This document shows, one piece after another, positions 13,231-36,456 of a stretch of 50,745 nt of DNA. Every line of letters begins with the position of its first letter. Positions within the stretch are counted from its first letter, which is position 1. The translations under genes were made by a program, and so were the position numbers. Location: positions 1 through 50,745 of the forward strand of contig JAKSLF010000020.1 in assembly GCA_024401355.1 (NCBI GenBank). The letters are read 5' to 3'. The notes beneath the pieces were generated by a model. The model did no database searches and was not told the origin of the DNA. It saw nothing but the letters and a program-made list of their open reading frames with translations. The stretch comes from Bacteroidales bacterium. Its GTDB lineage: Bacteria; Bacteroidota; Bacteroidia; Bacteroidales; Marinilabiliaceae.

Positions 13231-13265
13231 CCGTAGGGATACCGTAAGGATACCGTAGGGATACC
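13231..13265 (-). repeat. 11-bp tandem repeat array, locus 1
   Basis: Three units, CCGTAGGGATA, CCGTAAGGATA and CCGTAGGGATA, at exact 11-base spacing (13231-13241, 13242-13252, 13253-13263), then CC. On the minus strand this reads GGTATCCYTAC repeated and then GGGAAACTGAATGA. The array begins 12 bp after the stop of the AAA-like gene and ends about 146 bp before the P-type ATPase start. Related arrays occur at 23638 and 36411. Confidence 0.9.
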
Positions 13266-13277
13266 ACACAAGAAAAA

Positions 13278-14537
13278 TCAAGCCAACTTGCCATTTTCAT
13301 CAAGGAAAGTCGCAATCTGACGTCGCGAATCCTCATTCGTTATTCCCAGCACAAGCGAATTCCACTTCGAACCCTTGATAGTGAGCAAACCGAAATAGTA
13401 AAGCATGCTGATGAAGCAACGCGAATCATACAACCTATCAATCAGCATCACACTCTCAAGGTCAACAACAATATCCTCGCCCATGAAAGGGAACTTCAAA
13501 GCCGACGTCTTGGCATCATACTGCGAATCCCTTATAGTCAGCAACTGGCAAATGTCACATCGCGAAGTCGACGCAGGCATCCTGTATCCAGCCTCCTCAA
13601 AAGCATCCATAAATGCCATGACCTTACCCGGATTATACATCTGAGGCATCGCCGTGCACTCTGGACTGAAGCAATATCCACCAGCTCTATTCTTAATCTC
13701 AGCCTCCAGCTCGTCAATACCGACCTGGAACTTCAACCTATCCTTGTGCGACATAAGCATATCCCTGACATTCCTGTCAGTAAAGCCAGCCATGCACGAC
13801 ATACCAAAATCAGTAGTACAGAAAAGACCCTTATCAAAACCAGACAACATTGTCTGAATAGTCATAGGCAACGTACCAGTGGCAAAAATTCTCTCAATGC
13901 CCAGACAGCTCGAAGTGTTCAACGCATCAAAAAACCTGTAGAAATGCTTCAGGTTCTCCATCTGCTCGCTGTCAGTAAAATCAATCCTTCCGCCCTGCTT
14001 CATTATGCAGTCTATCACACAGTCATAACGGTCAATAAACATATAGACCTTATGGCCGATTGAACGGAAAAACATAGACAACTCAGTAATATAATGTATA
14101 GGCAACGACGAATTGACCACATCGACCAGACGGTCATGGTCATCATTGCTAAACATCCACCTGTATCGCTCAATGAGATCCAAAGCTGTCGAATGATATA
14201 TCTTATCGACATCACTCTTCAGCTGACTGAGATTACCACTTATCTTGCTAAAATCAATATTGACCACAACAAACGAACTACGGCTCGTCGTTGGACGCTG
14301 ACCAACATAAAGTCCACTAAACAACTCCGACCAGCTATCCTTCATATTTATATCATAGTAGGACATAAGCATAGAAATCAAAGTTGACATGCCAAAACCA
14401 TGTGGACGAATAAAGAAAATATACTTCGCACACTGCTCTATAGCACTGATATACATAGTCTTATCGACATACATATACCCGCCCTTACGCAATTTTACGA
14501 AATCACTTATCTTTGATATACTATCTTGATTGTTCAT
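13278..14537 (-). CDS. AAA-ATPase-like protein with degenerate nucleotide-binding motifs
   Basis: A 419-residue protein related to the predicted AAA-ATPase family (AAA-ATPase_like, PF09820). The family start 'F..LR..GY.YVDKT.YI' is seen as FVKLRKGGYMYVDKTMYI, followed by the P-loop region. The usual RPRRFGKS is RPHGFGMS here (near residues 44-52), so the P-loop lysine is methionine. The usual Walker B IDEYD is IDRYD (near 168), so the acidic residue is arginine. The C-terminal half is about the right length, but I see no PD-(D/E)xK nuclease motif. It is probably unable to hydrolyse ATP. The start at 14537 is chosen because the promoter box at 14558-14565 lies downstream of the longer alternative start. 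Confidence 0.75.
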   Translation of the reverse strand: MNNQDSISKISDFVKLRKGGYMYVDKTMYISAIEQCAKYIFFIRPHGFGMSTLISMLMSYYDINMKDSWSELFSGLYVGQRPTTSRSSFVVVNIDFSKISGNLSQLKSDVDKIYHSTALDLIERYRWMFSNDDHDRLVDVVNSSLPIHYITELSMFFRSIGHKVYMFIDRYDCVIDCIMKQGGRIDFTDSEQMENLKHFYRFFDALNTSSCLGIERIFATGTLPMTIQTMLSGFDKGLFCTTDFGMSCMAGFTDRNVRDMLMSHKDRLKFQVGIDELEAEIKNRAGGYCFSPECTAMPQMYNPGKVMAFMDAFEEAGYRMPASTSRCDICQLLTIRDSQYDAKTSALKFPFMGEDIVVDLESVMLIDRLYDSRCFISMLYYFGLLTIKGSKWNSLVLGITNEDSRRQIATFLDENGKLA

Positions 14538-14557
14538 TCCGGTTACATTTTTCCATG

Positions 14558-14565
14558 CAAAGATA
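14558..14565 (-). promoter_or_regulatory. Promoter -7 box of the AAA-like gene
   Basis: TATCTTTG on the minus strand, 20 bp before the ATG at 14537. It excludes an upstream start at 14597 for the main transcript. The -33 region has only TTAACTTT-like sequence. Confidence 0.55.
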
Positions 14566-14607
14566 AAGAAAGTTAAATTAGATTGCACTATATTCACAAC
14601 AAATATT

Positions 14608-14615
14608 TATATTTG
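14608..14615 (+). promoter_or_regulatory. Promoter -7 box for the 14.6-16.4 kb plus-strand genes
   Basis: TATATTTG followed by C, an exact -7 match 21 bp before the ATG at 14637, with a TTG 22 bp upstream (14583-14585). It forms a divergent promoter pair with the AAA-like gene. Confidence 0.6.
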
Positions 14616-14636
14616 CGGAACAAATTAGAACAAAAA

Positions 14637-34608: not shown

Positions 34609-36224
34609 TACTTTGTATAACGCTCTTCGCGGAGAGCCTTGATCTTCTCGTCCTCCATGTACTCCTCGAAGTCCATGTACTTATCGATAGTACCCTTAGG
34701 AGTAATTTCGATAACACGGTTACAAACAGTATGAATGAACTCGTGGTCGTGTGAAGTCATGATGATATTGCCAGGGTAAGTCTTCATGTTGTTGTTGAAA
34801 GCCTGGATAGACTCCATGTCGAGGTGGTTAGTTGGGTGGTCGAGCATGATAAGGTTAGGATTAGCGAGCATCATCTTAGCGATCATGCAACGCATCTTCT
34901 CACCACCGGAGAGGACAGTACACTTCTTCTGGATATCGTCGCCAGAGAAGAGCATCTTGCCGAGGTAGGTGCGAAGGAAGTAATCCTCAGTATTAGTAGA
35001 GAACTGAGCGAGCCAGTTAGTAAGGTCGAGCTCCTTCTTGAAGAACTCAGTATTATCAACAGGGAGATAAGACGTTGTGATAGTCTGTCCCCATGAATAA
35101 GTACCAGTCTTAGGCTGGAGTTCACCATTAATAATCTTGAAGAAAGCAGTAGTGGCGCGAGGGTCGTGAGAGAGGAGAGCGATCTTATCGTTCTTCTCAA
35201 TATTGAAAGAGACATCGGAGAAGAGGAGCTCGCCGTCCTGCTCATAAGATAGGTCGCGGACCTCGAGGACCTTATCGCCAGCCTGACGTTCAGGAGTGAA
35301 GATGATGCCTGGGTAGCGGCGAGTAGAAGGCTGGATCTCTTCGATATTGAGCTTCTCGAGCATCTTCTTGCGTGAAGTAGTCTGCTTAGACTTAGCGACA
35401 TTGGCAGCAAAACGAGAGATGAACTCCATGAGTTCCTTCTTCTTTTCCTCGGCCTTCTTGTTCTGTGCGGCCTGCTGGCGGAGAGCGAGCTGTGAGGACT
35501 CGTACCAGAACGAGTAGTTACCAGAGAAGAGCTTAACCTTACCGTAGTCGATATCGACGATATCGGTGCAGACATTATCGAGGAAGTGACGGTCGTGAGA
35601 AACGACGATCACAGTATTTTCGAAATTAGCGAGATAGTTTTCGAGCCAGAGGACAGTATCGAGGTCGAGGTCGTTGGTAGGCTCGTCGAGGAGAAGGTTG
35701 TCAGGATTGCCGAAAAGAGCCTGAGCGAGGAGGACCTTAACCTTTTCCTTACCTGTAAGGTTCTTCATGAGCTGGTTGTGCAGCTTCTCCTTGATGCCAA
35801 GTCCTGAGAGGAGGTTAGCAGCATCGGACTCGGCGTTCCATCCGTCCATTTCGGCGAACTCTTCTTCGAGCTTGCCGAGGACGATACCGTCTTCGTCGTT
35901 GAAATCAGGCTTAGCGTAGAGTTCGTTTTTCTTCTGCATGTTATCCCAGAGCTTAGTGTGGCCCATGAGAACTGTGTCGAGAACGGTGAACTCTTCAAAA
36001 GCAAAGTGGTTCTGCTTGAGGACAGAAAGACGTTCGCCAGGAGCCATTTCTACTCGTCCCTTAGTAGAGTCGAGATCGCCAGAGAGGATGCGGAGGAAAG
36101 TAGACTTTCCGGCACCGTTGGCACCAATTACGCCATAGCAGTTGCCTGGAGCGAACTTAATGTTTACGTCCTCAAAAAGAGGTTTCTTGTCAAATTGAAT
36201 AGCTAAGTCTGTTACTGTAATCAT
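34608..36224 (-). CDS. ABC-F ATPase with a degenerate second nucleotide site
   Basis: A 538-residue soluble protein with two ABC domains and no membrane segment, YbiT-like; ABC-F proteins act on the ribosome. Domain 1: Walker [10 protein letters not shown], signature [11 protein letters not shown] (usually LSGGE), Walker [14 protein letters not shown] charged linker follows (about residues 240-310). Domain 2: the Walker A position reads [12 protein letters not shown] with no P-loop Gly-Lys; the signature [10 protein letters not shown] is intact; Walker B is [12 protein letters not shown], with His in place of the catalytic Glu. Similar second domains occur in Bacteroidetes ABC-F proteins. The start at 36224 is chosen because the promoter lies at 36249-36279. 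Co-transcribed with the WbqC-like gene. Confidence 0.88.
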
Positions 36225-36248
36225 AATAGGATATAATATTTCAATCGA

Positions 36249-36279
36249 CAAAGATACGAAAGAAGTGTGGGGAAAACAA
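36249..36279 (-). promoter_or_regulatory. Promoter of the ABC-F/WbqC operon
   Basis: TATCTTTG (36249-36256) on the minus strand, 25 bp before the start, with GTTG (36276-36279) 19 bp upstream as a near-consensus -33 element. Confidence 0.65.
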
Positions 36280-36312
36280 CCAAGTGTTAATGATTTATCG
36301 TAAATTAACACA

Positions 36313-36400
36313 CAACGGACAAATGGAGAGAGAAGGAGATGGACGAGAAAAAAGATAAAAAAACTAGGAAAGAGGAGGAGAAGCAGAGAAAATCACTTGT
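36313..36400 (+). other. Purine-rich, C-poor intergenic tract
   Basis: About 88 bp made almost entirely of A and G on the plus strand, upstream of repeat locus 3 and between two divergent genes. No gene or hairpin is visible. It is the counterpart of the strand-skewed tract next to locus 1. Confidence 0.5.
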
Positions 36401-36410
36401 TAAATAATGT

Positions 36411-36456
36411 TGTATCCCTACGGTAAGGTTATCTTATCCCTCCGTTATCCCTAGGT
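36411..36456 (+). repeat. 11-bp tandem repeat array, locus 3 (degenerate)
   Basis: TATCCCT words start at 36413, 36435 and 36446, that is 22 and 11 bases apart, with one diverged unit (GGTAAGGTTAT) between the first two. The array ends TAGGTAAACGTTAAGG, similar to the GGAAAC flank of loci 1 and 2. It lies about 130 bp before the start at 36589 and points towards it. Confidence 0.75.

Follow-up and report, generated by a model that had tools for sequence, protein, structure and literature searches.

The three arrays of 11-bp direct repeats present in the window (the whole stretch of 50,745 nucleotides that was analysed) belong to a dispersed intergenic family, and what orders the copies of this family is the strand asymmetry of the DNA rather than the adjacent genes. 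We tentatively favor, at a probability of roughly 0.48, a reading in which each array is a small dispersed repeat that carries a putative helix-phased protein site and is inserted or tolerated in a single replication orientation, and in which the array is not mainly a gene operator. A mobile or slippage-derived origin had already been named as an alternative by an earlier sequence-only reading of this DNA, and the dispersed repeat is now the favored explanation. The arrays of the window and the tails of the first two are as follows.

Positions 13231..13265, minus strand: array 1, three exact GGTATCCYTAC units at 11-bp spacing
Positions 13219..13232, minus strand: tail of array 1, GGGAAACTGAATGA as read on the minus strand
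Positions 23638..23670 (locus 23638-23672), plus strand: array 2, three units, of which two are exact and the first has a single mismatch
Positions 23671..23683, plus strand: tail of array 2, GGAAACTCGATGA
Positions 36411..36456, plus strand: array 3, a degenerate copy (profile E = 0.0014)

All three loci exist as the sequence-only reading had described them, being exact at locus 1, near-exact plus exact at locus 2 and degenerate at locus 3, and the alike flanks it had noted 3′ of loci 1 and 2 are both present. Its distances of ~146 and ~96 bp from the first two loci to the start codons agree with the sequence, and the end of locus 3 lies ~132 bp 5′ of the ATG at 36589. Tandem Repeats Finder reports a period of 11 at loci 1 and 2 (scores of 63 and 58), and locus 3 is absent from its output at a score of ≥30. 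A profile built only from the sequences of 21 genome arrays, locus 3 not among them, recovered this third locus at E = 0.0014. The window as a whole holds 23 matches to the unit with up to two mismatches, as compared with a shuffle mean of 12.98, and none of 100 shuffles reached 23. No Rfam RNA family matches the window at gathering score.

Searching the organism’s own genome (69 unordered contigs, 2.9 Mb, 85% complete) with the array profile yielded 35 matches at E ≤ 0.05, which correspond to 32 distinct places after three doubles were merged, or about one array per 90 kb. The exact two-unit pattern GGTATCCNTANGGTATCC occurs 27 times genome-wide versus once for the reversed pattern (overlapping units counted), and these numbers become 48 and 29 when up to two mismatches are allowed, so the excess consists of near-exact copies. 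Arrays lie clear of called open reading frames (ORFs) in 26 of 30 cases, and the intergenic share of the genome sample is 7.9%. The remaining four overlap only ORF calls of <200 amino acids, which were taken as spurious and dropped under the simple ORF rule that defines genes here; the array at L044 overlaps the 3′ end called for the gene on its right. Thus, the genome search for further copies suggested by the sequence-only reading, which had regarded a location mostly inside genes as evidence against a regulatory role, bears out a dispersed intergenic family with exact 11-bp spacing, as evident from the 32 places and from the 26 of 30 arrays outside called ORFs.

The copies resemble each other at their ends, with ATTCC in the first unit of 10 of 21 arrays and a G(G)NRAA-type tail in 15 of 21. 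Array units are direct repeats of 11 bp, with neither a palindromic unit nor an inverted doublet, and no terminal inverted repeats were seen by eye in the flanks of the arrays printed. Predicted folds range from -6.9 to -18.0 kcal/mol for 49-100 bases, as computed with RNA parameters and without a shuffled control. Copying should leave unit variants linked to one another, and such linkage is marginal here (p about 0.07).

The orientation of the arrays is nearly absolute. At four-fold codon sites, G is enriched on the GGTATCC strand for 26 of 27 arrays outside the window after baseline correction (p 4e-7), where the correction is the mean sense-strand bias of -0.169 among 293 unselected genes, and the uncorrected skew is likewise positive for 26 of 27. 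Corrected skew averages +0.19 for genes on the array strand (73 genes) versus -0.56 for genes on the opposite strand (100 genes; p 2e-19). Total GC skew is positive for 24 of the 27 arrays, as is intergenic-only skew for 20 of the 24 that have enough letters. Because the unit contains more C than G, its base composition does not account for this preference for the G-rich strand. Two highly expressed gene types, recognized by motif, have a negative sense skew for which codon preference may be the cause.

The three window arrays follow the same rule, with their GGTATCC strand G-rich in each case (corrected local four-fold skew of +0.31, +0.41 and +0.59), and total GC skew over 10 kb on either side is less clear, being positive for two of three. 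Array 1 is the sole minus-strand array of the window, and it falls inside a segment where the asymmetry itself is reversed.

Positions 10328..18031: segment of reversed four-fold-site skew, enclosing array 1

Genes of both directions share the sign of the skew within this segment, the plus strand is positive for most other genes of the window, and the genes at the two ends of the segment are near zero (-0.07 for the first, -0.06 for the last). The segment is possibly an inversion or an acquired piece of DNA. As a usual rule, the G-rich strand is the leading strand, and the GGTATCC strand would accordingly be placed on the leading strand.

Gene context was assessed for 30 arrays, comprising 20 with stretches of 6-10 kb, seven with 3 kb and the three of the window, with the places on C10 and at C34:37033 excluded from the set. 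Described in array orientation, the neighboring genes are divergent for 13 arrays, both against the array for 11, both along it for four and convergent for one, with one case unresolved. The next gene is co-oriented with the array in only 17 of 29 cases, and the claim that every array precedes a gene of its own orientation therefore fails. What stands of the orientation argument is that orientation is non-random; it follows strand asymmetry (26/27), and genes do not set it.

These observations bear on the possibility that the arrays serve as tandem operators, with the 11-bp direct repeats bound by a transcription regulator. Operators of the PhoB/OmpR type consist of 11-bp direct repeats, and the arrays have the same spacing. 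Divergent spacers are also over-used, at 13 of 29 versus the 6.6 expected when spacer bases in unselected sequence serve as the reference (p 0.009 across spacer types; p 0.008 under a skew-oriented null), and consequently some tie of the arrays to promoter-bearing spacers is possible. This excess counts against our preferred explanation as well, since a purely selfish repeat need not show it. However, arrays differ from PhoB/OmpR-type operators by having up to about six units and neither a fixed gene orientation nor a regulon, and their orientation tracks skew instead of genes. Twenty of 59 extracted flanking genes were scanned against Pfam (19 left neighbors plus the P-type ATPase that is the right neighbor of array 1), and these are housekeeping or varied, with one of 20 having no Pfam match. 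With no coherent function among them, these 20 genes form no regulon. Mixed housekeeping neighbors, together with the placement of 4 of 17 arrays of a related species (G013, below) in convergent spacers, make an operator function the least probable of the explanations considered here.

The GGTATCC unit looks species-specific from genome comparisons. Its exact two-unit pattern is found in none of 14 other genomes of the genus, 70 others of the family and 392 others drawn from the order, and the best match to the array profile in another genus member has E = 0.09. Among named contigs, the nearest aminotransferase shows 73% identity and belongs to a rumen Bacteroidales assembly, which suggests a placement of the own genome in Bacteroidales. 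The search of related genomes that the sequence-only reading had proposed thus found this unit in none beyond the organism’s own genome. Four of the six sister species sampled nevertheless have intergenic arrays of 11-bp period with other units, and the other two have none. Periods were compared by counting, in unselected stretches, the loci at which a 16-bp segment recurs after a given lag with no more than three mismatches. Lag 11 is the commonest in the own genome (11 loci in 450 kb, seven of them in a ~300-bp element described below), in G009 (8 in 660 kb) and in G010 (3 in 200 kb), and it is tied with its double, 22, in G013 (4 in 151 kb) and G011 (6 in 200 kb). No lag-11 locus was counted in G005 (161 kb) or G001 (117 kb), and a laxer cut-off gives one in each. 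Intergenic tandem repeats in these two genomes prefer a 7-bp period (L257-L266 in G005 and L147-L153 in G001).

Array units vary between species, and at least four different ones occur within G011. The G013 unit GCGAGNTNNNAGCGAG has 46 exact two-unit matches versus 11 for a backwards control, none in the own genome and at most two in any other genus member. By eye, the 17 of these 46 matches that were examined have a variant first unit, more units and often a GGAAGTG-like tail, and their spacers are divergent (five), opposing (five), convergent (four) or along the array (three). For the G009 unit GCGATANNNNN, there are eight copies versus six for the backwards control, which is no clear excess. 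The retention of a constant one-turn spacing while units change suggests a protein aligned on one face of the helix.

Array polarity is strong in the own genome, and in relatives a weaker polarity is suggested. With 3-kb stretches, polarity is seen for 10 of 17 G013 arrays without correction (not significant) and for 13 of 17 once the baseline is corrected (p 0.03). When arrays from four relatives are oriented by their GTA/GGT content, the counts are 14 of 19 uncorrected (p 0.06) and 15 of 19 corrected (p 0.02), with two further arrays unorientable. Array positions are also not conserved beyond chance. Some pairs identified by eye are tempting (own L057 with G009 L134, locus 3 with G010 L252, and L044 with G011 L276), but a systematic test places such sharing at chance level. 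Among 107 pairs of orthologous spacers from five species, from which spacers at contig ends were left out, one pair has lag-11 arrays on both sides and 14 to 18 are one-sided (17 to 23 when lag 22 is included). The single shared pair compares with 0.41-0.57 expected (p 0.36-0.47), and inclusion of lag 22 gives 0.53-1.23 expected (p 0.44-0.76). We also observed that CGATGAACAAGGG, possibly another end motif, adjoins 11-bp-periodic DNA at G010 L252 and G011 L276, next to unrelated genes.

A second motif, AGTACGTGTTTCGA, which can form a 6-bp stem, stands after some arrays. The own genome carries 14 exact copies and 27 with no more than one mismatch (e.g. G000:C7:29819-29832). The 90 bp 5′ of the motif are strongly 11-periodic over 20 of the 27 loci (lag 11 z 7.5), and this periodicity persists at 16 loci that lack GGTATCC units (z 6.3); the 90 bp 3′ of the motif show no 11-bp periodicity (z 0.8). 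All 14 exact copies are polar, including 10 of 10 located away from GGTATCC arrays. In G009, there are six copies with an upstream z of 2.3 and a polarity of 5/6 uncorrected and 4/6 corrected, and 13 other genus members have no copies.

The main rival to the dispersed repeat is a functional polar mark, for which the arrays would be read directionally by a protein encountering either the replication fork or segregating DNA, such that selection, and not insertion, keeps their orientation and one-turn spacing. The near-absolute polarity (26/27), the period that is retained while units differ, and the fully polar AGTACGTGTTTCGA motif that follows 11-periodic DNA are all consistent with such marks. 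Arrays resemble the AIMS and KOPS sequences in being strand-polar (26/27, plus 3/3 in the window by corrected four-fold skew). However, AIMS are 8-bp sequences described in PMC5993296 as abundant on leading strands, whereas the arrays are rare, multi-unit and intergenic (32 places in 2.9 Mb, or about one per 90 kb), and their positions are shared between species no more often than by chance. We consider this explanation unlikely, though less so than the other rivals. Slightly more doubtful is a broader version in which a group of related species, probably of Bacteroidales, would use polar, helix-phased protein arrays as chromosome marks, the unit being replaced from one species to another while the 11-bp period and the replication orientation persist.

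The arrays might instead be functionless, either as remnants of the ~300-bp element with inverted ends or as plain products of slippage. This element occupies ~40 places in the own genome (including L128:17031-17415), and its inverted ends read close to AAAATC.A.TTTGAC...TTTGACCATGACCATT. Its center is the best conserved part (0.974 versus 0.929 for each terminal repeat, 29 copies aligned) and by eye looks like an array plus tail, one copy (on C10) overlaps an array-model match, and its orientation is likewise biased (21/29 uncorrected, 22/29 corrected). Other genus members contain one end-only match, in G009, and no plasmid match was found. Miniature inverted-repeat elements, with which this ~300-bp element and its array-like center invite comparison, have inverted ends, whereas the arrays lack terminal inverted repeats, and none were seen beside the arrays printed. 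Slippage leaves unexplained both the polarity and the occurrence of one common period with differing units across species. A functionless origin is thus improbable, if somewhat less so than an operator.

The shared ends, species-specific sequence, turnover and fixed skew orientation together point to the small dispersed repeat that we favor, with copies lying in one direction relative to the fork. Such a repeat would be very roughly 40-50 bp long. Its left unit is often ATTCCTAC, the number of 11-bp units ranges from two to about six, and a GG(G)AAA-like tail often follows. The array would form a row of sites on one helix face for a putative DNA-binding protein, and copies would insert, or would be tolerated, in a single orientation with respect to the replication fork. 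Unit number may then shift by slippage, and the dominant unit may shift from species to species. Points against this proposal are the direct repeats without terminal inverted repeats, the weaker polarity in relatives and the marginal linkage of unit variants.

Bacterial short dispersed repeats are mostly palindromes or inverted-end elements. The arrays are like REP/REPIN sequences (TnpA-REP/RAYT) and IS200/IS605 elements in being short, intergenic and present in many copies, but REPs are palindromes and REPINs are inverted doublets, whereas the arrays are 11-bp direct repeats. Orientation linked to the fork or to replication is described for IS200/IS605-type elements, and the kinds reported to have such orientation use the single-stranded template of the lagging strand, or the sliding clamp, in their movement (PMC5371812, PMC6006769 and PMC3116915). 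Motif patterns for Y1 transposases gave no match in 969,393 bases fetched from the own genome (overlaps included). Neither a transposase nor a binding protein, an empty site or a target duplication turned up in the analysis, which also counts against our preferred reading. A phage source was rejected, as one array searched with its flanks has no phage match. Among 2.9 million viral contigs, 27 (L160-L186) have one exact two-unit match each. Tandem repeats of 6-11 bp are over-represented intergenically in a few archaea, according to PMC4060949. The literature searched, outside whose scope fell most subscription papers, contains no described element of this form.

If the arrays do mark chromosomes in a polar manner, this implies that a binding protein co-evolves with them and that they act directionally in segregation or at the replication fork. 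If our preferred reading is correct, a family of one-turn direct repeats with near-absolute skew orientation and a unit that varies by species would represent an unusual mobile or chromosome-organizing sequence. Any closed genome from the genus would allow its polarity to be checked, and the array could be used as bait for its putative protein.
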